DNA from: a virus
IMG/VR virus record: IMGVR_UViG_3300011445_000481
Coordinates: 1 to 30,664 of that record
Direction: 5' to 3' (one strand)
DNA: 30,664 nucleotides
Of the stretch, positions 271 through 21,107 are shown one piece after another. Within the stretch, counting starts at the first letter, position 1. Every line of letters starts with the position of its first letter. A program made the position numbers and the translations under genes. The notes under the pieces were generated by a model. It did no database searches. It saw nothing but the letters and a program-made list of their open reading frames with translations, and was not told where the DNA came from.

Positions 271-1305
271 TCACTTGTAAAGTGCGACGCCATCGGCGCC
301 ACATTCCTGGTCGAATAGAGCCATCGCCTCGTCATCGAACGGATCAACCATTTCATCCGCGGGCACGCTTAGCGTGCTCCGCGAGCGGAAAGGGATGACC
401 GTAGTCTTAGCCTTGCCAACCTTGTACGTTTCGATGGCCTTGTCTATCTTCGTAACGGCCGGGTCCAGTTCCGCCGCGCGCTTAGCCTCTAGCCATGTCT
501 GCGTGGCGCTACCCTCGACCGGCTTGAACGTTGTCACCCCCGGCCGCGTTTCTGACACGGTGGCGACGTACTCGCGCACACCGTAGGCCCGCGGAGCTAG
601 CGCGATCTTGCGCTCGTCCACGATCTCACCTCGCACGACCTGTAGGTAGGTCCCCATGCCAACGGTGCGACGGTTGACAATCTTGCAACGGCCTTTCGTC
701 GCAAGTTGGATCGCCGATGTCGTTGACGCCATGATCAGATCGCCGGCCTTAGTCCACGCTAGCTCCATCGGTCGATCACGCAAGCGCGCGAGGTGTAGAA
801 CCTCTGGCGAGTTTGCGTCAAGCCACGCGATCGCCGCGTCGCCTTTCACAAGCTCCAGAAGCTGCGCAGGGTCATCCTCGCCGAACGCGTTCGGACCGTA
901 CGCGAGCAGAGCCGCTAACGCCTCTGAGTCAACCTGGCCGCGACGCTCGCACTCCAGAAGCGCGAATAGCTCATCATCGTTGCTCAGCACGCCGTTATGG
1001 ACCAACGCGATCCCTGGCGCGATCACCGGGTGATTGTTCTCTTCGTCGGTGGGCGAGCCCTGGGTCGCCCATCTGGTGTGAACGATCGCGGTCCTCATCC
1101 ACCGCTGTAGCGGAGCTTGATCAACCGCGTACATCGCGGGTTCATCCCACTTCCAATACTCTGGCCAACCGTGCTCGCCGATCCACGCGAACCCGGTAGC
1201 GTCCCAACCGCGCTCCTGTAGTCCGGTAGCGAGATCACCTAGGACTAGGTCCGCCCTGGTGATGATTGATCCGTCCGCCCGTGATAGGGCGCCTATTCCG
1301 CACAT
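271..1305 (-). CDS. Class II glutamine amidotransferase-like protein
   Basis: 344 residues. The protein begins Met-Cys-Gly-Ile-Gly, so after Met removal Cys2 becomes the N-terminal nucleophile typical of class II (Ntn-type) glutaminase domains, which release ammonia from glutamine. Other family signatures are HTRWAT (about 76-81), NHP (91-93) and HNG (103-105), matching the glutamine-binding and oxyanion-hole motifs of GlmS/PurF/AsnB-type domains. The last 150 residues show no synthetase or sugar-isomerase domain, so the acceptor enzyme must be separate; the amidoligase gene 12 bases upstream is the natural partner. A strong GGAGGG site precedes the ATG. The family assignment is firm. The substrate and the partnership are inferred from adjacency. 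Confidence 0.9.
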   Translation of the reverse strand: MCGIGALSRADGSIITRADLVLGDLATGLQERGWDATGFAWIGEHGWPEYWKWDEPAMYAVDQAPLQRWMRTAIVHTRWATQGSPTDEENNHPVIAPGIALVHNGVLSNDDELFALLECERRGQVDSEALAALLAYGPNAFGEDDPAQLLELVKGDAAIAWLDANSPEVLHLARLRDRPMELAWTKAGDLIMASTTSAIQLATKGRCKIVNRRTVGMGTYLQVVRGEIVDERKIALAPRAYGVREYVATVSETRPGVTTFKPVEGSATQTWLEAKRAAELDPAVTKIDKAIETYKVGKAKTTVIPFRSRSTLSVPADEMVDPFDDEAMALFDQECGADGVALYK

Positions 1306-1317
1306 ATTCCCTCCGTT

Positions 1318-2670
1318 CTAGACCGCGATACCTAGATCGCGCTGTCTGTCTGTCGTTGCGTGGCGTCGGAATGCCACGCTGGTTGCGTCCGTGATCAATT
1401 CGTGGTCGACCAACACGGTGAGCATGTCGTCAACATGATCACTGGTCGGTATCGGCAATTCGCGCCGTGCGTACTCGACTATTGCCTGAGTAACGCGTAC
1501 CCACGGATCGACCTTAGCGTAACTCAGTGTATGGCCTAACCCGCGGAATTCCACTGTGCCATAGGTCATAACCGGTTCAAAGTTGATCGACCAGTAACGA
1601 CCATGAGGCACAAAGCCGCGACCATCGGAACGACGCGGAGTCAGGGATTCCGCCTCCAACCAATCCCACTCATACTGGCCGAGTATTGACGCTCCACACG
1701 TATTCCCACCGCGCCAACGGTGGGCGGGAACGAATGCCATAACCGGACGCTCCCACACGCGTAGAACGCGGACCAGGTGCCGAATCTGCTCGCGCGTGAA
1801 ATCGGTCACGTCATGATGAACGTGCATACCGACGTTATCGGCGGTACTGCCACCGTTGTCTTTGACAGCGTCAAGCGCTATCTTGACCTGCTGTAGTCCG
1901 GTCTCGGTGCGCATCGGAGGTGAGACGAATTCGCCACCCGACACGGTAGAATCTGTCGTCATCTTCCACCAACGGAGCGTGTTGTGGTTGTAACGTTCCA
2001 CGCGCGCTTGCAAACCCTGGTCGCGGCACGCTTGCGCGATCGCTTCTTGCATGTCGTCTACGTAGAGGTCGCAATCGTTAGACCGATTGAATTCGATTTC
2101 AATCCCGAATCGCCGATTGATCAGACCGGGCGCGACGCGTGGCAGCACCATACCGTGCCGTTTGCGCGCGCGGTACGCGGCCCACCGTGCCAGCGAGTAC
2201 CGACCTGCTGTAGTGGGAGGTAGGCCCATCGTCCTGGCTACTTCGTTCCACGTGTAGCCCTGCTGGCGGAGATCGAGCGCGCGATCCTCGTCCTGCTCGC
2301 TTAGTTGACGATGGGAGGTGCGTGGCGTCGTTAACGGCGTGAATCTCTCATCCACGATCCAACTAAACGGCGAAGGGGCCTGCTCAGCGCTCCGCCGGCA
2401 CTCCGCGCAGTGACACGGACCCCACGGCGCTCCCCGCGTGACTGCCACGCGGTGCACGTTCTCGCGGTGGGCCGTCTCGGTGTAGACGTAGCCACGATTC
2501 GCTAGGTCGTGCGCTAGTACGTCTCGACCGGCGATGGCTTCGCAATAATCGACAAAGCGAGCGCCGATAGTGATCGGACTGAGCATCCCGTCGATCGGCT
2601 CGCCCCCGTCCCACGACAGCACGTCGCCGCGGCGGAGATCCGACCAGGCCACATCAGTCAGTCGAGGCAT
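1318..2670 (-). CDS. Putative amidoligase (glutamine synthetase-like fold) with internal HTH-like segment
   Basis: 450 residues. The C-terminal half carries the conserved pattern of the Amidoligase_2 / COOH-NH2 ligase family: RFGIEIEF (188-194, paired acidic residues), TDSTVSGGEFVSPP (239-252), a GMHVHHD histidine cluster (281-287), YWSINFEP (359-366) and TVEFRGLGHTL (372-382). Such enzymes are predicted to join a carboxylate to an amine using ATP. Residues 122-163 (LSEQDEDRALDLRQQGYTWN, then EVARTMGLPP) resemble a helix-turn-helix, and residues 86-91 form a small Cys-rich CHCAEC motif. The N-terminal 120 residues are not recognised. The start overlaps the end of the upstream gene by 13 bases and has a GGGGGTGG site. 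With the downstream glutaminase it may form an amide-modification system for peptide, cell wall, protein or nucleotide; the substrate is unknown. Confidence 0.85.
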   Translation of the reverse strand: MPRLTDVAWSDLRRGDVLSWDGGEPIDGMLSPITIGARFVDYCEAIAGRDVLAHDLANRGYVYTETAHRENVHRVAVTRGAPWGPCHCAECRRSAEQAPSPFSWIVDERFTPLTTPRTSHRQLSEQDEDRALDLRQQGYTWNEVARTMGLPPTTAGRYSLARWAAYRARKRHGMVLPRVAPGLINRRFGIEIEFNRSNDCDLYVDDMQEAIAQACRDQGLQARVERYNHNTLRWWKMTTDSTVSGGEFVSPPMRTETGLQQVKIALDAVKDNGGSTADNVGMHVHHDVTDFTREQIRHLVRVLRVWERPVMAFVPAHRWRGGNTCGASILGQYEWDWLEAESLTPRRSDGRGFVPHGRYWSINFEPVMTYGTVEFRGLGHTLSYAKVDPWVRVTQAIVEYARRELPIPTSDHVDDMLTVLVDHELITDATSVAFRRHATTDRQRDLGIAV

Positions 2671-6565: not shown

Positions 6566-6819
6566 TGATTCCTGTGTTCGATGACCCTCTCGTCCTCGCC
6601 CCCAACCTTTCTTCGTCCCAGGTGATCGCCTCGACGTTCGTCCCCGATCCCGAGGGCACCTTCGAGTTCGACGGCAAGCGTTTCCGCGACGTGTACTTCC
6701 CGGTGGACAGGGATGCCACCGACGCGCAGATGCGCGAGATCTGCTTCGAGATCCACAACGGCCAGCCGATGGACGACTATCAGCGCTGGGCGCTGTCAGA
6801 AGCGCAGTCTGGTGCTTGA
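6565..6819 (+). CDS. Small hypothetical protein between terminase and portal
   Basis: 84 residues from an ATG that overlaps the terminase stop (TGATG); a TTG one codon earlier is possible. It begins MIPVFDDPLVLAPNLSSSQV and has a mid-segment FEFDGKRFRDVYFPVDRDAT followed by an acidic helix. It is soluble and has no known family. The close coupling to terminase and portal suggests a head-assembly or portal-associated accessory role, by position only. Confidence 0.65.
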   Translation: MIPVFDDPLVLAPNLSSSQVIASTFVPDPEGTFEFDGKRFRDVYFPVDRDATDAQMREICFEIHNGQPMDDYQRWALSEAQSGA

Positions 6820-8659
6820 TCTCAGGGGCGAACTCGATCCAGCCCACTTCTCGGCCTGCTGGACCCGCTACCACGAACGGTGGGGCGAACGCAACCAACG
6901 CATGGAGCGCATCGAGCGCGCGGCGCGTGGCGAATGGTCCATTCGCCTGCCCGATGACAAGCCTGTCGAAGAGTCGCACTCTCCGAACCTGATCCTCACC
7001 GCGTTGGAGGACACCGCCGAGGCTGCCAGCCTCATCCCGTCCGTGCGGATCAAGCCTTCCGGCACGACCGACGCCTCCAAGAAGGTCGCCGGCAAGATGG
7101 AGAAGATCGGAACCTCCTACCTGGAGGGCTCCGAGATCGAGCTTCTGACCATCAGATCGCTGATGAACCTGTCCGGCTTCGGCATGTTCGCGTGGGTGGT
7201 CACGAAGAAGCCGGGCGAGCCGCCTCGAATCCAGTGGCGCGACCCTCGGACATGCTTCCCTGAGCCCACCGAAGGCTTCCTCGGGGTCACCAACCGTTGC
7301 TTCTTCGCGCGCGATTTGTATTTGACGCAACTTGACCCCGTATGGCAGGAGAAGTTCTGCTCTGCGGTGATCGGACGAGGCACCAACCCGAACTACTTCA
7401 TGGATCACGCGGTCACGCTGATCGAGTACTACGATCCCGACGAGACGATCATCGCGGGCGTCTACGACAGCAACATCGTGGAAGGCCACAACCGGCTCCA
7501 GCCGTCTGAGCCGCCCCAATGGGTGTCGATCATCCTGGAGCGCACCGAGAACGAGTCGAAGCAGTCTCCGGTTGTCATCGGCCAACGAGTCACCTTCGAC
7601 GGCGAGCCCCGCGGCCAGTTCGACCAGGTGATCGGCGTGATGGAGGCCCATATCCGCCTCATGCGCCTCACCTTGGACTACGCCGACCAGAGCGTCTACT
7701 CCGACATGTGGGTGAAGGACGTGATCGGCCGCGTCCCGATGGGCGGCGGTTCGCTGATCACGCTCGGACCCAACGGCGAGATCGGCCGCGTGCCGCCCGC
7801 GGTCAGCTCGATCACCGTCCACCAGGAGATGCAGCAGCTCGTGGAGGGCTTGCACCTCGGTGGCCGGTGGCCAAAGACCCGCCCCGGCGACATAGACCAG
7901 TCGAACATCTCCTCGAAGGCGATGGAGTCGGCGGTCGGGATGCTGAACACCGTCATCCGCACGTACCACCTGCTGATGCGCCGCGCGCTCAAGCAGGCGC
8001 AGCGCGTGATGTTCAAGATGGACCACCAGTCCGGCGAGAAGCGGCTGATGGCCGGCGTGTTCAAGAACCAGTCGTACCAGATCGACGTGGACACGAAGAA
8101 GGACATCGACATTTCGGCTGACATCGACGTGACCTACGGTCTCGGACTCGGCCACGACCCGTCGTCCTCGATGGTGATGGGCATCCAGGCGTCGCAGGCC
8201 GGCATCGTGTCGCTGGAGTTCGTCCAGGAGAACTTCGAGGGCATCGAGGACGTGCAACTGGAGAAGGTCCGGGTGGACGCCCAGGACTTCATCGGGATGA
8301 TGAAGGCCGAGCTGCTCGCTGGCGTGCAAGGCGGCACCGTTCCAAAGGGAGCGCTGTCGAAGATGCTGCGCGGTCGTCTCAACGGCGAGACGATCCAGGA
8401 CCTGTTCGACAAGTTCGTCGCCAAGCCCGAAGAGGAAATGCGCGAGTCGATGATGATGTCTGGCCTGACCGGCGGCATGGTCCCGCCCGGCCCTGCCCCA
8501 CAGCAGGGCGGCATGGTCCCACCGGCCCCACCGCCTGAGGAGCTGTTCGCGGCTCTCGGCGCGGGCGGCGGTGAAGCGCCTGTCGAGCAGGAGACGATTG
8601 CCAGAACCTCAATGCCCACCAGCCCAGGTGGGTTCGCTGGCGTGCAGACCACGGGGTGA
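6812..8659 (+). CDS. Probable portal protein
   Basis: 615 residues from GTG 6812, overlapping the previous gene by 8 bases; ATG 6901 is an alternative. It lies directly after the terminase, the usual portal position. It has the portal-like composition of an alpha/beta core (RIQWRDPRTCFPEPTEGF, IRLMRLTLDYADQSVY), a long helical stretch (about 375-420) and a C-terminal low-complexity Pro/Gly/Met tail (GGMVPPGPAP repeated). The portal forms the dodecameric ring at one capsid vertex through which DNA passes and the tail attaches. No signature residue proves it, so the assignment rests on position, size and overall pattern. Confidence 0.75.
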   Translation: MLDLRGELDPAHFSACWTRYHERWGERNQRMERIERAARGEWSIRLPDDKPVEESHSPNLILTALEDTAEAASLIPSVRIKPSGTTDASKKVAGKMEKIGTSYLEGSEIELLTIRSLMNLSGFGMFAWVVTKKPGEPPRIQWRDPRTCFPEPTEGFLGVTNRCFFARDLYLTQLDPVWQEKFCSAVIGRGTNPNYFMDHAVTLIEYYDPDETIIAGVYDSNIVEGHNRLQPSEPPQWVSIILERTENESKQSPVVIGQRVTFDGEPRGQFDQVIGVMEAHIRLMRLTLDYADQSVYSDMWVKDVIGRVPMGGGSLITLGPNGEIGRVPPAVSSITVHQEMQQLVEGLHLGGRWPKTRPGDIDQSNISSKAMESAVGMLNTVIRTYHLLMRRALKQAQRVMFKMDHQSGEKRLMAGVFKNQSYQIDVDTKKDIDISADIDVTYGLGLGHDPSSSMVMGIQASQAGIVSLEFVQENFEGIEDVQLEKVRVDAQDFIGMMKAELLAGVQGGTVPKGALSKMLRGRLNGETIQDLFDKFVAKPEEEMRESMMMSGLTGGMVPPGPAPQQGGMVPPAPPPEELFAALGAGGGEAPVEQETIARTSMPTSPGGFAGVQTTG

Positions 8660-8792: not shown

Positions 8793-10217
8793 ATGACCTC
8801 ATACACTCGCCGGCTGCTACTGGCCGTAACCGCTGTAACCGCATCTTTCGCCATCGTCCCACCGGGTGCTCCCGCGTTCGCGGAGCTGCCGATGACCGAC
8901 TGGGTCGGCGAGTTCGAGCCGGGCTCCGACCTCGATCACTACTGCGACTGGGTGCTCGAACAGATCGGCGTCCCGGCAGACGAGCGGGCGTCGCGACAAC
9001 CGGACACCGGACCGGACGGCCGGAAGTGTGCGATGCCCGATCTCGACATGATCTGGCTGCGCCTCACCCAGAAGGAGGCCGACGACGCCAACGCCCTGAC
9101 CGGCCAGGCCCCGCTGATGGCTGCCGAGACATCAGGCGTCGTGTCTCTCCCCACACCGATCAGCAACGGCGGCGGGCCTCTCGCCCCGCCAGGACAGTCG
9201 GGGACGCAACAGATCCCTCCCGCGGTGCTGCGCGCCGGGACTCCCGTTGACGAATGGATCAACGGCGCGCCGTCGATGGCCGGGGTCCGGGTGGCGGTCA
9301 TCGACACTGGCATCGACGCCACCCACGATGACCTCGAAGGCCAGGTCGCCACCGGTTTCAACTGCTCGCAGGATTACCGCGGCCCCGAAGGTTGGGGTCA
9401 AGATGCCCACGGCCACGGAACCTGGGTCGCCGGCCGGATCGGCGCGAAGCACAACGACATCTACATCACGTCCACCGCGCCCGGCGTGACCCTTCTGGAC
9501 GAGATCACGTTCTCCACCGAGGGTTCGGCGTCGGAAGCAATGGTGTTGTGCGCGGTCAACATGGCGCTCGAACATGACGCCACGATCATCTCGGCGTCGC
9601 TCGGCGGTCAACACGTCGCGACACGATGCGGCGGGCCGTCTGTCTACACGAACGGCTGGTGCAAGGCCGCGCAGCGGGCGGTCGTTGTCGTCGCTGCGGG
9701 CAACGACAACATGGACGCGATCAACTTCGGACCGGCAAACGTGCCGGGCGTTGTGGCGGTCGGCGCGATCGTTGACTACGACGGCCTGCCTGGCGCGCTC
9801 GATGTCGGCCAGGGTTGCGGGCTCATGCACCTCGATGACGCGCTCGCCGTGTTCTCGAATTGGGGCTCGACCGTCCGCCTTGTCGCCAACGGAGGCTGCG
9901 AACTTGGCCTGCTGCCCGGACAGTCGTGGGGCATATCGTCCGGTACGAGCATGTCCACACCGGAGGTGTCCAGCGTCATGGCGAACACCGCGGCACGGTT
10001 CCCTGACTGTCGCGGCGACGCTCTCATCACGATGGTCATCAACTACGCGAAAGCGTGGGCGCGTGACCATCCCGAGGACGGCTACAGCGACTGGCCGGGT
10101 GCGTTCCCGCCGCCTCTCATCCGCTACGTGGACGAAGAGCCGTATCAGATTCAGCCCGACCCGGAAGAGCCACGTTACTGTGCTTTCGAGTCCGACCGCA
10201 TCGGAGGTGCGTCGTGA
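8793..10217 (+). CDS. Secreted subtilisin-like serine protease (S8 family)
   Basis: 474 residues. An N-terminal signal peptide is plain: TRR, a hydrophobic core, and an Ala-Phe-Ala cleavage site near residue 30. After about 130 residues of possible propeptide come the S8 catalytic motifs: Asp171 in VAVIDTGIDATHDD, His208 in HGHGTWVAG, oxyanion Asn304 in AAGNDN, and Ser386 in SSGTSMSTP. All triad residues are present, so it should be active. Several Cys (for example 51, 79, 191, 253, 280, 290) suggest disulphides outside the cytoplasm. It lies where many phages encode a head-maturation protease, but export argues for an extracellular role: degrading cell-surface proteins, lysis or exclusion of other phages. 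The operon continues into two small exported proteins. Confidence 0.92.
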   Translation: MTSYTRRLLLAVTAVTASFAIVPPGAPAFAELPMTDWVGEFEPGSDLDHYCDWVLEQIGVPADERASRQPDTGPDGRKCAMPDLDMIWLRLTQKEADDANALTGQAPLMAAETSGVVSLPTPISNGGGPLAPPGQSGTQQIPPAVLRAGTPVDEWINGAPSMAGVRVAVIDTGIDATHDDLEGQVATGFNCSQDYRGPEGWGQDAHGHGTWVAGRIGAKHNDIYITSTAPGVTLLDEITFSTEGSASEAMVLCAVNMALEHDATIISASLGGQHVATRCGGPSVYTNGWCKAAQRAVVVVAAGNDNMDAINFGPANVPGVVAVGAIVDYDGLPGALDVGQGCGLMHLDDALAVFSNWGSTVRLVANGGCELGLLPGQSWGISSGTSMSTPEVSSVMANTAARFPDCRGDALITMVINYAKAWARDHPEDGYSDWPGAFPPPLIRYVDEEPYQIQPDPEEPRYCAFESDRIGGAS

Positions 10218-13115: not shown

Positions 13116-13136
13116 TTCCTCGGGGTGTACTCAGAG

Positions 13137-16100
13137 ATGAGTGACACGTCCATCTTCACGCCGGAGGTGGCGCCGGTCATTTCCCGGTTTGACGCTACGC
13201 CCGACCTCGCGCGCGTGGATCGCAACATCCAACAGATCTCGGCTGTCGAGTCCACATGGTCCCTGCCCCCACTGCCCGACGAGTTCAAGGCCGACCTCGC
13301 CACGCTCGGCGACGTTGACGACGTTGGGCTCTTTGACTTCCTGACCGGGATCGAGGACGAGATTCGACAGGCCAGAGAGCCTGAGATTCCCCAGCTCCCG
13401 CCGATCCCGAACCGGGGCATCGATCAGGGCCGAATCATCGTTGCCTCACTCTCGGGTAATCCCGCCCCGCAGGTGGCCACCGAGGACGCCGTGATGCGCA
13501 CCAAGCTGGATATGATCCGGCACGGTCTCATCGACATGGACCCGTCGAAGGTCGATTCGTCGTGGAGCCCGGAGTTCAACCGCTTCCGCAACGATCTGGC
13601 GTTCGAGCGCTACGACGAACGGCTACGCGGCAGCCGCGAGGGCGCGATGCCGCTCTCGGGCGTCATGGACCTGTTGAACGACTTCACGTCGCCGTCCGGC
13701 CTCCTGTCCGCCGCCACCCAGCTCGACATGTTCTGGGACTTCGGCAACATCGGCAGCGAGATCCAGACCTGGGGCGACAAGTGGCGGAAGCTGGGCGAAG
13801 CCAAGAACCCGCTCGACTGGGGCGCGAAGCTGTGGGACGCCCTGACCGGGCCGATCGATGACATCCTGCTTCCGATCATCAACGTCGGCCTGATGTTCGC
13901 AGGCGTCGGCGCTGCGTTCAACACCGGCCGGATCGGGATGCTGATGGCGCGCGGCCGCAACATCGACATGATCGGTGACCTCTTCCGCACCTCGAAGCTG
14001 GCCAAGTTCACGGGCGGCGAGGCTGCCCTCAAGAACTTCACCGAACTCGGCCGTGCATCCTCGATGGCCACCCGTCTCGGGCGGGCTGACAACGCTCTAG
14101 CGCGAGGGGCCGGCGAGGCGCTGCGCAAGTGGCGCGCGGCGCTGCCGGTTGCGACGGCCAAGGGTCTCGTGCAGCCAGGGATGCGCCTCGGGTTCGTCTC
14201 GCAACTGGAAAGTCGGATGGGCTCCTACGAAGGCGGCGTCAGCCTGGCCGACGTCTCAGACCCGGTGAACGAACTCTCGGAACGTCTCTACGCTGCGGGC
14301 CAGACCCCGGTCATGTTCCTGCCAGAGGTGATGATCGCGCCGTACAACATCTTCCGTCCTGGGACGTTCTTCCGCAGGGCCGGCGAAGGCACCGGAGTGG
14401 CGTCGAAGCTTGGCAAGGGCGCACGGTTCGCTCTCGGTACCGCTCCCGGGCGCGCTGGGGTGGGGGCCACCATCGGCGCAGCGGCCGGCACGGCGACAGG
14501 CGATGACGGCGGAGACATAGCGAGAAGCGCTGCTATCGGCGCGGGCGCGGCGGCGATAGCACCCGCTGCGGGCCGCTTGCTGATGCGCGAGAACGTGCCC
14601 GGCGCGATCAAGGCTGCGGCCCTCTCGGCCGGCGCTGGAGCGCTTCTGGGCGACTCGCCTGATGACGCCGCCTGGGGGGCGGCGGCTGGTATCGGCCTGT
14701 TCGGCGTCTCGCCAACTGTTCGACGCATTCTGTCTGAACGCCTGCCGTCTATCAACCGGGCGATCAGGGCCAGCGGCCGGGGCCTCGACCTGATGTCGTT
14801 CCGCCCGATAGCGGACCAGCACGAGCCGGCGATGGCCGTCCACGTCGGCATGGTCGCCCATCTGGAGACCGGCATCACCACCGCCGCCACGGCGGAGGAG
14901 GCCGCTGCGATGCGAGGCCGTCTGAACCAGTGGAACACGAACGTTCGCATGTCGGGTGTGAAGCACGCCTTGGCGGAAGAGATGCGCCTCGCCACCGGAA
15001 ACGAGATCGCCGACGAGGTGGCTGCCGCCACGATCGTCTGGGCGAACACTCTGCTCGGCATCGACCATATCGCGAGCACGCAGGCGAAGAGCTTGACCGG
15101 CGGAGCGTGGCGTGGGCGTTGGCATTTCGCACGCAACAAGCTGGTCAACCAGATCCGCCCGTTCGCGGCCACCGATGACGTGGGAACCGACGCCTGGTTC
15201 GATGACCTGTCGATGGCGATGGCGATGACCGAAGCTGGGCAAGCGGCGTCTCGCCGCGAACTTCTGAGCCGTGCCGGCACGATCCGCGCCAGGCTCGTCG
15301 CTGATCCAGAGCAGGCCGCGCGCCTGGCGGCTGCACACGACAAGACTGCTGTCGAGACCCTGACTCAGCTCTGGCGTCCCGAGAACATGCCGAAGCCGGA
15401 CCCGAACGCTCCGTTCGACCCCGGCATGGAGGCGCCGGGCATACCGGGTATGGCCGGTCTCGGTGCTGAGGGCCGCGCTTTGCTCATGCAGAAGTACATG
15501 CCGCAGATCTGGGACAAGTTCGGCAACTGGCCGAAGTTCACGGCATCCACCGATTCAGTCCGCCGGTCGCGCGCGTCCGGCCTTCTCGATCCGGCCGAAC
15601 TCATCCCGGCCAAGACCCGCACCGGCCGGCGCTCACACATCACCGATGTGACCCGCCGCGACCGCGCCACGCGCGCGGTGAACGAGGCGATGACCGAATC
15701 CGCGCTGACAGAGAAGGGCGATGGCGTCTGGGACGCGGCGACGAGCGTCCTCGCCCCAGGCGTGCTGCCTGGCCGCATGACGATCGCCGACCTTGCCACC
15801 AAGTCTGGCCAGGAAATCTTCGAGCTGCGTGAAGAGGTCTCAGACCTCCTCGACGCCCGTAAGCACCTGGAGCGCCTGGACCGGCTGGCGGGCGGCGCCG
15901 GCCAGCGCGTCGAACGCCTCCTGCCCAGGTCTGTCGAGATGCCGCAGTCGCCGGACTGGCGGAGCGTCATGAGAGACGTGGGGATCGAGGATCTGACCCC
16001 GCAACAGATCGGCCACCTTGTTCGGGAGACGTTCCACCCGAGCACCGTTGACGAAGGCGGCAGAATGGTGAGCCGCTCGTTCCCTGGCGAGGACTCGATG

Positions 16101-18698
16101 ATCTACATCGTGAAGTTCGCCAAGCGCAAAGGTGTCTCCGTCGATCAGCTCACCTCGTACATCAACGACGAGGCGGTCAAGCTGGCCGACGACGCTGCCC
16201 GCTGGGACGAGTACGGCCTGCCTCTCTCGATGGCCGACGAGAACGGCCGCACCCTCACCGGGTTCGACGCGCTCAAGAAGCGCTCGAAGGATCTCCACGA
16301 ACGCTGGCAGTACGCCGCCAAGGAAGTCGATGTCAAGAAGCTGGCTGCCGACTACCGTGCCGCCGGCCGCATGGCCGACGCCGACGAAGTCGAAACCCTT
16401 GCTGCCGCCCTCCAGGCGGACAACTACAAGCTGATGCACGGCGTCGAGTTCGCGATGCCGGAGGATCTCGCCCTGGTACCTGGCGGCATCTGGGCGGACA
16501 TCAACCGCAAGCACATGAACTACGCCACGCTCGGCAACTTCTTCAAGGGCCGGCTGCCGGCCGAAGGCCACATCATCGCTGATCTGCGGCACCGTGCCGC
16601 GCTGGTGAGGGAGCTGTCCGAACTCAAGGATTCGACGTTGAGCGGAGTTCGCACCGACTCGGAGGAGGTCGACGGCATCCTCGACTTCCTCCAGCGCTGG
16701 GTGCGTGCGGACCAGGATCGCGTCGAGGATCTAACCCGCCACATGGATCTCGGTTCGGTCACCAGGCGCACCGTCCAGAGGGTCACCACATCGATGACCC
16801 CGGTGAACGTCGAGGACGTGCAGTCGCGCGGGAAAGAGATCCGCAACGCTCTGATGAAGGAGGCCGGCTTCTCTGACTCGGAGGCGCGCGCGATCGTCCG
16901 CGCCACGGCGAAGTTCCGCAACGGCACGTTCAAAGACATGGGCCTGTACGCGTTCGAGGCCAAGGCTCGCTCGGGCAACCAGGCGGCATGGGCGCTCAAG
17001 ACGCTTTCAGGCGCCAAGTACGGCGAAGGCTTCCTCGCGCGCGGTCGAGGGCAGCGCGCTCTTGGTGCCACCGCTGGTGCGATAGCTGGCAGCCAGGCCG
17101 AGGCCGAGGGTGACACGTTCGAGAACCGCCTCGCCAAGGTTGTGCTCGGCGGCGCAGCCGGCGCGGCGGTGGGAACCGTAGCCCCGAACGTCCTCAAGAA
17201 GGTCGCCGACCCGCTGGCCAGCGCGGCTCGCGACTGGCGCTACGGCTACCTCGCCGACAACCTGGCCCGCGCGCGTGACTCACTGCGCTTCACAATCTCG
17301 CCGATCTTCGATGCATCTCGGTACACGGAAGGTATGATGCTCGCCCAGACGGGCGCGCCGATGCGCTACACGCGCGAGGTGAAGGACGCCGCCGGGCAAG
17401 TCGTCCACAAGGTCGGCGATCGGGTGATCCTGCCGGGGAATATGACACCCCGCGCGCTCAAGAAGAAGATCGGCGTTGAGGCGTACGAGCGCCGCATCGG
17501 CCAGTTCCAGAAGTTCTCCCGTGACCGCCAGGACTTCGACCCGGAGGCGCTCGACTCGACCGGCCGTTGGTTCAAGCAGGTCGGGATTCTGGGCTTCTCG
17601 CCTGTGGACTGGATGGGCACCGCTTTCGCCCGACTCATGGGTGAAGGGTTCAACGCCGACGAGGCATACGACGCCACCCGTCGTATGTATACCTACGCCA
17701 CCGGCAAAGGTGTCGGTCGCGCGCGGTCGGCTGCCGAGATGTCGGTGAACTTCATGTTCTTCCCCTTCTCATTCCAGAAGAAGGCGATGAGCCACCTCGC
17801 CAAGTGGATGAACGACGACCTCGGTCGTTCGATCATGCTCCACGACGCGTTCAAGACGTACGAGCTGCTCGATGAGCAGTTCAACCTGGAGGACCGCTGG
17901 CGGGACTACTTCCCGTGGATTCAGCAGCTCCAGCGGCTCAACCTGTTCGCGTACGGCCTGTCGATGGGACGCTTCGGCGGCATCAACTCGCAGATGTTCG
18001 AGACCGGCGGGAAGCTGGCCTGGAACATGTTCGTCCCGGTCGGCATGAAGATTGAGACCGACAACGCCGAGGAAGTCAAGGCGCTCACCCGCAACCTGCT
18101 GCCGGTGCTCAACGACATCAACTGGATGTCACGCAACCTGCACGAGCAGGCCAACGTGATCAGCTCGCCGGCCCACGTAACGCGCGCGTCCGAGCGCAGC
18201 AAGGGCTGGGAGGAGTGGAACCAGTTCAAGGCCGACTTCGACGCCCAGCTCCGTGAGCGTGGCTACACGCTGGAGGACATCCACAACAAGCCGTGGCTGA
18301 GCGACGCGCTCGCGTTCTATGAGGACAAGCGGACCGAGCTGCAACGCAAGTACCCGGCGTGGTGGGAGTCCCGCAACGAGACGATCGGCAACATCATGGC
18401 GGAGGAGCAGGAGCGCAACGACGCCATCGACCGCTTCGCCACTGACACGCGCGCTGGGATCGCGCCGTCGATGGACGACGCCATGATCAACGAGTTCGAG
18501 ACGGTGCTCGCCGAGATCAAGGATCGCTTGCGGCTCACGGCCGGGATCACCTCATTGGAGGACGCGCCGCCCGAGGTGATGGACATGATCCGCAAGATGG
18601 CGGTGGGCTTCGCCCAGCAGAATCCGCGGTGGGTGTCGATCTGGGAGCGGTTCTACCTGAAATCGTTTGGACCCCTTACTGTGGAACGTCGGCTCTGA
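13137..18698 (+). CDS. Giant probable internal virion / ejection protein (1853 aa)
   Basis: ATG 13137 lies ten bases after GGGGTG; the frame opens at a GTG at 13125. The protein is mostly charged helix, interrupted by hydrophobic or Gly/Ala-rich segments at about 240-262 (ILLPIINVGLMFAGVGAAF), 435-500 (GVGATIGAAAGTATGDDGGD) and 1305-1355 (GGAAGAAVGTVAPN), which look able to enter membranes. A late region reads FMFFPFSFQKKAMSHLAKWM. Giant proteins of this kind near virion transglycosylases often are ejected with DNA or line the channel through the envelope. A tape measure is the alternative, but no tail-assembly frameshift pair is seen. The extreme C-terminus (YLKSFGPLTVERRL) is repeated at the end of the following HNH gene. 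Confidence 0.8.
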   Translation: MSDTSIFTPEVAPVISRFDATPDLARVDRNIQQISAVESTWSLPPLPDEFKADLATLGDVDDVGLFDFLTGIEDEIRQAREPEIPQLPPIPNRGIDQGRIIVASLSGNPAPQVATEDAVMRTKLDMIRHGLIDMDPSKVDSSWSPEFNRFRNDLAFERYDERLRGSREGAMPLSGVMDLLNDFTSPSGLLSAATQLDMFWDFGNIGSEIQTWGDKWRKLGEAKNPLDWGAKLWDALTGPIDDILLPIINVGLMFAGVGAAFNTGRIGMLMARGRNIDMIGDLFRTSKLAKFTGGEAALKNFTELGRASSMATRLGRADNALARGAGEALRKWRAALPVATAKGLVQPGMRLGFVSQLESRMGSYEGGVSLADVSDPVNELSERLYAAGQTPVMFLPEVMIAPYNIFRPGTFFRRAGEGTGVASKLGKGARFALGTAPGRAGVGATIGAAAGTATGDDGGDIARSAAIGAGAAAIAPAAGRLLMRENVPGAIKAAALSAGAGALLGDSPDDAAWGAAAGIGLFGVSPTVRRILSERLPSINRAIRASGRGLDLMSFRPIADQHEPAMAVHVGMVAHLETGITTAATAEEAAAMRGRLNQWNTNVRMSGVKHALAEEMRLATGNEIADEVAAATIVWANTLLGIDHIASTQAKSLTGGAWRGRWHFARNKLVNQIRPFAATDDVGTDAWFDDLSMAMAMTEAGQAASRRELLSRAGTIRARLVADPEQAARLAAAHDKTAVETLTQLWRPENMPKPDPNAPFDPGMEAPGIPGMAGLGAEGRALLMQKYMPQIWDKFGNWPKFTASTDSVRRSRASGLLDPAELIPAKTRTGRRSHITDVTRRDRATRAVNEAMTESALTEKGDGVWDAATSVLAPGVLPGRMTIADLATKSGQEIFELREEVSDLLDARKHLERLDRLAGGAGQRVERLLPRSVEMPQSPDWRSVMRDVGIEDLTPQQIGHLVRETFHPSTVDEGGRMVSRSFPGEDSMIYIVKFAKRKGVSVDQLTSYINDEAVKLADDAARWDEYGLPLSMADENGRTLTGFDALKKRSKDLHERWQYAAKEVDVKKLAADYRAAGRMADADEVETLAAALQADNYKLMHGVEFAMPEDLALVPGGIWADINRKHMNYATLGNFFKGRLPAEGHIIADLRHRAALVRELSELKDSTLSGVRTDSEEVDGILDFLQRWVRADQDRVEDLTRHMDLGSVTRRTVQRVTTSMTPVNVEDVQSRGKEIRNALMKEAGFSDSEARAIVRATAKFRNGTFKDMGLYAFEAKARSGNQAAWALKTLSGAKYGEGFLARGRGQRALGATAGAIAGSQAEAEGDTFENRLAKVVLGGAAGAAVGTVAPNVLKKVADPLASAARDWRYGYLADNLARARDSLRFTISPIFDASRYTEGMMLAQTGAPMRYTREVKDAAGQVVHKVGDRVILPGNMTPRALKKKIGVEAYERRIGQFQKFSRDRQDFDPEALDSTGRWFKQVGILGFSPVDWMGTAFARLMGEGFNADEAYDATRRMYTYATGKGVGRARSAAEMSVNFMFFPFSFQKKAMSHLAKWMNDDLGRSIMLHDAFKTYELLDEQFNLEDRWRDYFPWIQQLQRLNLFAYGLSMGRFGGINSQMFETGGKLAWNMFVPVGMKIETDNAEEVKALTRNLLPVLNDINWMSRNLHEQANVISSPAHVTRASERSKGWEEWNQFKADFDAQLRERGYTLEDIHNKPWLSDALAFYEDKRTELQRKYPAWWESRNETIGNIMAEEQERNDAIDRFATDTRAGIAPSMDDAMINEFETVLAEIKDRLRLTAGITSLEDAPPEVMDMIRKMAVGFAQQNPRWVSIWERFYLKSFGPLTVERRL
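18654..18698 (+). repeat. Copy 1 of the YLKxFGPxTVERRL coding end
   Basis: The last 15 codons of the giant gene. Protein copy 2 at 19115-19159 shares 12 of 14 residues. Eleven of those 12 shared residues use a different synonymous codon; only the Tyr codon and the stop match. This copy uses AT-richer codons (AAA, TTT, GGA, CTT, ACT, GAA, CGT) unlike its surroundings. Confidence 0.9.
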
Positions 18699-19159
18699 TG
18701 GCTCCGCCACGCCAGGACTACTCAAACGGCAAGACCTGTACGGGCTGCGATCGGAACCTTCCGGTGTCAGAGTTCAGCATCCGAGCTGACCGGCAGCGAC
18801 CCCGGTCTCGCTGCCGCGCGTGTGAGAGCGAGGCGGCGAGACCGCGTGCGAGACATAGAACCCAAACGCAACGGGAGGAGTTGCGGGCCTACCGGCTCCT
18901 CCGCAAGTTCGGGATCACCGTCGAGCAGTACGACGAGATGTTCGCCGCTCAGGGCGGCGTGTGCGCCATCTGCTCTTGCCCACCGCACTACAAGCGCTTG
19001 GCCGTGGACCACAATCACGAGACGGGTCAAGTCCGCGGCCTGCTCTGCGGTTGGTGCAATCGGTCTCTCGGCGGGTTCCGCGACTCTACAGAATTGCTAG
19101 TGAGCGCTGCTCGGTACCTCAAGGACTTCGGTCCGATCACGGTCGAGAGGCGCCTGTGA
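18698..19159 (+). CDS. HNH endonuclease of the endonuclease VII-like family, probable free-standing homing enzyme
   Basis: 153 residues from ATG 18698, which overlaps the stop of the giant gene (TGATG); a longer frame to 18629 lies inside that gene. A zinc ribbon (CTGCDRN at 8-23 region, CRACES) is followed by the nuclease core CAICSCPPHYKRLAVDHNHE, then GLLCGWCNRSLGG: His/Asn catalytic residues and four Cys holding zinc. Such enzymes cut DNA at specific sites and spread by homing. The ends betray an insertion: the protein starts MAPPRQ, as the next gene does (MAPPRN), and ends like the giant protein (FGPxTVERRL). The gene is less GC-biased than its neighbours in places. A role in virion or DNA maturation is the alternative. 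Confidence 0.92.
   Translation: MAPPRQDYSNGKTCTGCDRNLPVSEFSIRADRQRPRSRCRACESEAARPRARHRTQTQREELRAYRLLRKFGITVEQYDEMFAAQGGVCAICSCPPHYKRLAVDHNHETGQVRGLLCGWCNRSLGGFRDSTELLVSAARYLKDFGPITVERRL
19115..19159 (+). repeat. Copy 2 of the YLKxFGPxTVERRL coding end
   Basis: The last 15 codons of the HNH gene. Codon choice (AAG, TTC, GGT, CCG, ATC, ACG, GTC, GAG, CGC) is typical of the phage, so this may be the original end of the giant gene, now fused to the endonuclease. See 18654-18698. Confidence 0.9.
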
Positions 19160-19175
19160 TCTGGGGGGTTCATTG

Positions 19176-21107
19176 ATGGCTCCTCCGAGAAACCTCCCCC
19201 GTGAGGACGACACCGGGCCAAGCCCGCTCGATGACATCGAGGGTCTGTCTCCCGAAGAGATAGTCGAATACATCCGAACGAATCCCGGCCTGTCGAACGA
19301 CGAGGTCACGGAGATCGTCGCGTACTTGCAGACAGCGAGCGCCGGGGACCCGACGCATCAGGCCGAGTGGACTGATGCGATGCTCGCGGCTCAAGACGAG
19401 TTCGACGGCACCGACGAAGAGTTCGATCAAGGGGTTCAGACGGCGCTCACGGGTCAGCCTCCGCCCGGCGACTTCGATGACGTGCAGCTTGACGAGGATG
19501 AGGCGGAGGCGACGGCAGCCACTCTCCAGCAAGCCTACGACGAGTACCTCGCCGCGAACAACGATATTCCTCCTTCGGAGGCGTGGCTGCGGAACACGGC
19601 GTTTGAGCTTGGCATCGAGAACCCGACCCAAGCCGTCGAACAGTTCAGAGCTGATCTAGAGGCTGCCAATGAGGATGATGACGATGACGACGGCAACCCC
19701 AACGATCCCGGCGAGCAGGTGTTCACCGAGACCACCCTCGCCGACTGGGCGCTCCAGAAGATCCTCGGCCTGACCAACGGCCCGATCACGCCTGAGATCG
19801 AGCAGCGGATCGTGGACTACTTCAACCTGTATCACAACGGCAACTTCGAGTCGATCGAGGACGTTGCTCCTTTGCTGGAGGAAGCGACCCGCGAGAACCA
19901 GATCCTTGTCGAGGCGGCGGCGCTGGATGACACGCCGGAGCAGGGCTGGACGGTGCGAGTGCCCAACGGCCGGTCGATCGCTATCCCTGGCAATGTGGCG
20001 GAGAACCTGTTCACGAACTTCGGCTTCGACATCCTGGGCGCCAACCGTCTGGCCCGCCTGATGGCGATGGGGCCGGCGAACGCCCTCCCGTACGAGGACC
20101 CGGTGGAGAACATGCTCGTCGTGGCCGGGCTGATGCGCGGCCTCAACATGCAGGGTGACCTCGCTGGTGAAGAGCAGGCGGACTCGGAGGCGCTCACGGA
20201 CGAAGAGCGCGAACGTCGGCTCCATGAGGGCGAGCTAGCGGTCGGCCGGGCGTTCCCTGGTGGCTTGGAGGCCATCGACGTCGCGTCCACAGCGCGCGTC
20301 ACCGGCCACGCGGCCGGTGGCCAGAACGTCGGCCCGGTGAGCCGCATGCCTACAGGCCGTACCGAGTTCGGCGTGGCGTACGCCACCGAGCGCTTCCGCC
20401 AGGGCTGGGAGCGCTACCAGGACGTGGGTCTCGCGGTGGTGTTCGCGTTGGACGGTCCTTTGGCCGCTCGGATCGCTGCCACGGGTGGCGATCCTGAGAA
20501 GCTGACGCCCGAGGACGAGCTTCTCACCTGGAACATCATCCGGCGCACCAGCGGCCAGACGGCCGAGTCGTGGCTGGAGTTCGCACCGGAGTCACCGCTC
20601 TCGTTCTTCAACCAGCGTTTCGGCCGCGGCGGCAGCGGAGGTGGCGGCGGAGCCGGCCGCATCCGTCCGATCCTCGACCGTGACCAGGTGACCCAGGAGT
20701 TGGAGCGGGTGATGCAGAACCTTCTGCTGATCTCACCGTCCGACGCGCTCAAGGAGCAGTTCTACAACGAGACCCAGGCCGCGCTCGACAACGCCGCCGA
20801 AGGCCAGCAGCTCGACATCACGGCCAAGGTGCTCGCGTTCGCGCGCGGCCAGGCCCGCTACGACGAGCTGTATGGCAACAAGCCGGGCGGCATGACCGAA
20901 GAGGAGTACATGTCCCAGTTCCGTAGCGCCGAGCAGCAGATGCTTGGCGCGGAGCGTGGCGACGTCGGTTCACTGGAGGCCGGCCTCAAGACGGGCAAGT
21001 ACCAGTCAACGATCGGCTCGATCGCCGGCTCGAAGCAGGCGTTCGAGAACTCCCGCTTCATGGGGCGGACCTACGAGGCCGCTGAGATCTTCCAGGCGAA
21101 CACCTGA
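19176..21107 (+). CDS. Acidic probable virion protein (643 aa)
   Basis: ATG 19176 (MAPPRNLPREDDTG) follows a GGGGGG site; a TTG codon just before is possible. The first 190 residues are strongly acidic and helical, ending in a run of six Asp after NE (about 165-172). A Gly-rich patch (GRGGSGGGGGAGR) lies near 485-495. The C-terminus is helical (EQQMLGAERGDVGSLEAG). No catalytic motif or membrane segment is seen. By order, giant protein then this, then a transglycosylase protein then a 357-residue protein resemble a set of internal virion or tail-tube proteins. The last codon overlaps the next start (TGATG). Confidence 0.7.
   Translation: MAPPRNLPREDDTGPSPLDDIEGLSPEEIVEYIRTNPGLSNDEVTEIVAYLQTASAGDPTHQAEWTDAMLAAQDEFDGTDEEFDQGVQTALTGQPPPGDFDDVQLDEDEAEATAATLQQAYDEYLAANNDIPPSEAWLRNTAFELGIENPTQAVEQFRADLEAANEDDDDDDGNPNDPGEQVFTETTLADWALQKILGLTNGPITPEIEQRIVDYFNLYHNGNFESIEDVAPLLEEATRENQILVEAAALDDTPEQGWTVRVPNGRSIAIPGNVAENLFTNFGFDILGANRLARLMAMGPANALPYEDPVENMLVVAGLMRGLNMQGDLAGEEQADSEALTDEERERRLHEGELAVGRAFPGGLEAIDVASTARVTGHAAGGQNVGPVSRMPTGRTEFGVAYATERFRQGWERYQDVGLAVVFALDGPLAARIAATGGDPEKLTPEDELLTWNIIRRTSGQTAESWLEFAPESPLSFFNQRFGRGGSGGGGGAGRIRPILDRDQVTQELERVMQNLLLISPSDALKEQFYNETQAALDNAAEGQQLDITAKVLAFARGQARYDELYGNKPGGMTEEEYMSQFRSAEQQMLGAERGDVGSLEAGLKTGKYQSTIGSIAGSKQAFENSRFMGRTYEAAEIFQANT

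Follow-up and report, generated by a model that had tools for sequence, protein, structure and literature searches.

A putative mobile EndoVII-type endonuclease gene in the 3′ coding end of a giant phage gene, flanked by two versions of that end

Introduction

The closest described counterparts of the locus reported here are the mobile ORFs (mORFs) of fungal mitochondria, found in Allomyces atp6 and in Glomus atp6, atp9, cox2 and nad3 (PMC3630166). In these elements, an endonuclease ORF lies in the 3′ end of a gene and is flanked by two versions of that end: a foreign, mostly synonymous C-terminal copy completes the gene, and the displaced native end, which resembles close relatives, is found 3′ of the endonuclease (PMC3630166). 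Among phages, F-CphI of cyanophage collaborative homing is a demonstrated free-standing homing endonuclease with an EndoVII motif, a DHHRN nuclease encoded next to its target gene, and its carrier owes protection to a group I intron in psbA (PMC6083498). The seg and mob homing endonuclease genes of T4 lie between phage genes; homing copies flanking DNA, which seg and mob elements co-convert, their cleavage and insertion sites are separate, and the review of these systems mentions no duplication or fusion (PMC2988022). An engineered counterpart is the home-and-rescue (HomeR) drive, a Cas9 system in Drosophila that is inserted at a 3′ coding end with re-coded last 22 or 27 residues, the re-coded copy keeping function and blocking re-cutting (PMC7968924).

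Here, we describe a locus in a 30.7-kb virus record (the window, by which we mean the whole stretch of DNA analysed) in which an HNH endonuclease gene follows a giant gene and both genes have the same end. Judged from sequence, and with relatives of the window that are distant, the locus has the hallmarks of the Allomyces and Glomus elements, namely two versions of the gene end, a native-like displaced one and a foreign inserted one. Unlike mORFs, which are mitochondrial, encode LAGLIDADG or GIY-YIG enzymes and usually have their displaced ends apart, the phage element is minimal (461 bp) and EndoVII-type, and its nuclease ORF runs on into the displaced end and terminates at the stop codon found there. 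It resembles F-CphI as a free-standing DHHRN nuclease gene adjoining its presumed target, but the replaced end and the split site, rather than an intron, would protect the carrier. The position between phage genes is shared with T4 seg and mob, and the likeness to HomeR is an analogy of logic only. No phage precedent for the arrangement was found in the literature searched, most subscription journals being outside that search.

Results

The giant gene lies between head genes and a gene for a transglycosylase-domain protein, with terminase, portal-like and S8-peptidase genes upstream, and its product gave no Pfam or PHROG match. It is followed by the HNH gene, whose ATG (18698) overlaps the giant gene stop as TGATG, then after 16 nt by the next gene, and after this by the transglycosylase-domain gene. 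The features discussed below are, on the plus strand:

13125..18698, +, giant gene (the target), an intact ORF of 1857 aa, now ending in the 14 codons of copy 1
18654..18698, +, copy 1, the putative replacement for the giant gene's original end, YLKSFGPLTVERRL plus stop, with foreign-looking codons
18659..19119, +, candidate inserted element of about 461 bp, placed by the codon-usage break at 18654 and by the relatives' matches to the flanks
18698..19159, +, gene for an EndoVII-type HNH (DHHRN) endonuclease of 153 aa, assigned by profile matches
18698..18712, +, MAPPR start of the HNH protein, the same five residues as at 19176-19190
19115..19159, +, copy 2, the HNH C-terminus YLKDFGPITVERRL plus stop, beyond the EndoVII domain, with native codon usage and similarity to relatives' DNA
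19176..21107, +, next gene, 643 aa, starting MAPPR, with homologues that adjoin the giant gene in HNH-free relatives

Two further regions of the window are recorded here in their own right. A Peptidase_S8 subtilase gene (8793-10217, +; E=1e-32) just 3′ of the portal-like gene (6713-8659) occupies the slot expected for a head-maturation protease, a role in which this protease type is unusual. At the left end of the window, adjoining amidoligase-like and glutamine-amidotransferase-like genes (271-2670, minus strand) are possible peptide or cell-wall modification genes.

The giant and HNH proteins both end in YLKxFGPxTVERRL, with 12 of 14 residues in common, and copies 1 and 2 use a different, synonymous codon for 11 of these 12. 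A chance match was ruled out by a mispairing control: when HNH tails were set against the upstream genes of other loci (9702 mispairings), the highest tail-match score was 38, as against 65 for the window; the control had been cleaned of EndoVII gene arrays and near-duplicate loci, which inflated its uncleaned form. With the phage's own codon usage, 6.0 codon differences are expected and P(≥11)=0.001 (range 0.001-0.002), an excess that becomes marginal under uniform codon use (P=0.07 for the window), so that the counts are no more than suggestive of synonymous recoding under selection. Copy 1 falls at the 0.5th percentile of 14-codon windows (GC3 0.50 vs 0.85 for the giant gene), whereas copy 2 falls at the 59th (GC3 0.93). 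Since codon usage is normal upstream of copy 1, the change is sharp near 18654. The recoded common ends and the phage-like codons of the HNH copy had both been pointed out in an earlier note on this DNA, as had the MAPPR start common to the HNH protein and the next gene with three of five codons differing, and all of these hold.

The nuclease itself is assigned by its sequence to the endonuclease VII/DHHRN family (PF02945, E=1.6e-24, 86 bits against a cut-off of 23.6, residues 66-142; phrog_2633, E=2.5e-39). All catalytic and zinc residues are present (D104, H105, H107, R113, N121, C89, C92, C117 and C120), and they are nearly all invariant among ten homologues. EndoVII matches occur in 1879 phage records. 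For comparison, 112 distinct EndoVII genes (99 of them non-redundant) were assembled, with an alignment scan built from six sequences. Family members usually end just after "YL", followed by unrelated residues and a stop, and the profile matches to the window's protein stop at residues 142-146. An ending in FGPxTVERRL was absent from every other HNH homologue examined, which rules out a tail natural to the HNH family, the finding that the earlier note had named as fatal to its reading.

Nine distinct homologues of the giant gene were recovered by a motif scan and alignment scans; phage-collection searches with the giant gene and the next gene gave no matches, and a junction-peptide scan gave one, which was unrelated. 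All nine end in a version of W.KFYxxxFGPI, and in seven of them (L046, L047, L048, L049, L050, L053 and L055) a homologue of the next gene follows directly, without an HNH gene. The HNH gene is thus optional between conserved genes, as expected of a free-standing homing endonuclease. Because the relatives' giant genes end alike and EndoVII proteins end otherwise, the giant gene is the owner of the tail; past GPI, the relatives differ freely from one another (TSAVI, TTLVGY, EAEV, EKELR). From the tyrosine on, the relatives' DNA matches copy 2 at 141 of 243 positions and copy 1 at 107 of 243; taken singly, seven relatives favour copy 2, two tie and none favours copy 1, and the FGPIT DNA of copy 2 is identical to that of L049 at 15 of 15 positions. 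Codon usage points the same way, although the two lines of evidence are not entirely separate. Over the six bases before the tyrosine, the relatives instead match the context of copy 1 and almost never that of copy 2. On this evidence, which comes from relatives whose aligned C-terminal parts share only 40-47% identity with the window, no close HNH-free relative having been found, copy 1 is a foreign piece, and the native end of the giant gene survives, displaced, as copy 2.

The ancestral junction would accordingly combine the left side of copy 1 with the right side of copy 2, and therefore the insertion would span about 461 bp between TACCT repeats at 18654-18658 and 19115-19119, with exact ends uncertain by a few bases. 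The repeat is expected from the coding, and we claim no target-site duplication. Overall, the interpretation in the earlier note is partly supported. Its prediction that HNH-free relatives carry a single giant-gene end immediately before the next gene holds in the seven relatives, and their DNA is nearer copy 2, as it had foreseen; a junction matching copy 1 throughout, which would have spoken against it, occurs in none of the nine homologues. The exact YLKxFGPxTVERRL-stop-MAPPR junction that it specified was not found among these distant relatives. Its proposal of an insertion carrying a recoded end of the upstream gene stands as regards the foreign end and the intact gene, but the site lies inside the coding end, near TACCT, and not at the stop/start junction.

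The MAPPR repeat is weaker than the C-terminal match but unusual among the sequences compared: five N-terminal residues are shared by the HNH protein and the next gene here, and at most three in the other 111 HNH loci. The next gene of one relative (L050) begins MAPRP. Copy 1 may carry the whole stop/start junction of the donor, with the HNH gene fused to the start of the donor's next gene, a reading that hangs on five residues. As a general feature, such an N-terminal duplication was rejected, being absent from both sister cases described below.

About three of 99 EndoVII loci, including the window, show a nuclease gene flanked by two versions of its target's end, and so the architecture is not a general habit of the family. 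In Cyanophage Cy-LDV1 (tail-match score 60, null maximum 38), a C5-methyltransferase ends PQLAAEVIRAWMDVRP and the EndoVII protein ends PQVAAEVIGAYLDVRGAA; the copies differ in protein too, and 10 of 11 shared codons differ (P=0.016 with the phage's own codon usage, 0.08 with uniform use). The methyltransferase of Cr-LKS3, a phage of the same host species, ends PQVAAEFIGAYLDG, which by direct count matches Cy-LDV1 copy 2 at 33/42 nt and 12/14 aa, and copy 1 at 28/42 nt. Cr-LKS3 is not a clean empty site, as another methylase gene lies in between. In the Cy-LDV1 record (L069, 1296-2528), the methyltransferase (g54) is annotated in a frame other than that of the 410-aa C5-methyltransferase ORF, and the annotation of Cr-LKS3 g58 also departs from the frame in which the GNAIVPQ end is encoded.

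In the other sister case, an IMG/VR phage (L006), WVREL* occurs twice, with stops TAG and TGA, and the target gene encodes a protein of unknown function. Only five residues are shared, the score of 29 (P=8e-4, 0.08 expected in the set) is exceeded by some mispairings, and synonymous change is not excessive. The score alone is not decisive; the exact C-terminal alignment and an empty site support L006 as a probable case, the two flanking genes being joined directly at SLWVRRQ-TAGTG in phage GX15bay. In all three cases, the nuclease is joined just after YL to the native end of the target and uses the native stop. The three phages are unrelated, as are their three target genes, and the shared tails are unrelated in sequence.

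Discussion

We consider it probable that a mobile EndoVII-type gene was inserted in the giant gene's final ~14 codons together with a replacement end, and that it homes and leaves its carriers immune. The inserted stretch would open with a version of the target's end, stop included, that has diverged by synonymous changes. Next would come the nuclease ORF, which overlaps the replacement stop (TGATG) and brings no stop codon itself; the displaced original end, read in frame, would supply its last residues and stop. In a co-infection, the nuclease would cleave the 3′ end of phages in which this end is uninterrupted, and the element would be copied into them during repair. The replacement end would keep the target gene working; the reading frame of the giant gene is intact with its inserted end. 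Carriers would be immune, because the DNA of copy 1 is different and the left flank of copy 2 is missing. As an intact displaced tail points to a recent insertion and near-saturated synonymous change to an old divergence, copy 1 most likely arrived already diverged. The sharp left edge argues for an illegitimate or microhomology join, or for very short co-conversion, and probably against long-tract homologous repair.

Alternatively, a donor's giant-gene end and HNH gene could have been attached to the native end of the recipient by illegitimate recombination between two diverged phages. The synonymous differences would then reflect donor divergence, with neither homing nor cut-site immunity. 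The mosaic nature of phage genomes, the donor-like codons of copy 1 and the occurrence of the pattern in a minority of EndoVII loci would all fit such passive mosaicism; it is nevertheless unlikely, given that the foreign upstream tract is only ~14 codons long with a sharp edge and that the same precise arrangement recurs in three unrelated phages at three unrelated targets.

Origin of both tails within the phage is very improbable. A tandem duplication of the native end followed by synonymous divergence, selected for example against repeat recombination, would explain two protein-intact tails that differ in 11 of 12 codons. It would require a protein constraint on the nuclease tail, which EndoVII proteins do not need, and it leaves the foreign codon signature of copy 1 and the Cy-LDV1 copies, which differ in protein and of which the second matches a related phage, at odds with it. 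We give still less credence to convergence of both proteins on a functional C-terminal signal, for example for packaging: the exact protein match in different DNA is what such a signal would produce, but the relatives' residues after GPI are free to vary, and the tails of the sister cases, which come from a methyltransferase in one and from an unknown protein in the other, are unrelated in sequence.

If the insertion reading is right, the locus shows a way for a selfish nuclease gene to occupy a coding sequence while the invaded gene stays complete, with neither intron nor intein. More tentatively, the three loci might represent a recurring phage class of natural home-and-rescue elements, made up of minimal EndoVII genes that enter the 3′ ends of genes with protein-preserving diverged ends and take the displaced native end as their own C-terminus, and in which recoding would be kept by selection because it prevents self-cutting. 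Synonymous recoding as a homing gene's protection of its carrier, the principle of engineered rescue drives, is thereby made testable, and a systematic search for the arrangement is feasible because three unrelated target genes show the same trick.

Among the remaining EndoVII loci, L013, L146 and L137 were rejected as further shared-tail cases, their scores being within chance in the mispairing control. In L013 (3900-4420), a methyltransferase ends KASLGWR, the following EndoVII protein ends TASMNWK and its gene overlaps the next one by TAATG, which makes it a possible fourth case with a score within chance. EndoVII genes at the gene 13/14 internal virion protein junction of T7-like phages (L057, L058, L061, L062 and L071) have no shared tails. 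In Synechococcus phage 7B11-B (L068, 1877-3544), three EndoVII genes alternate with the terminase small subunit gene and a small gene, and two of these EndoVII genes have common GHYG tails.
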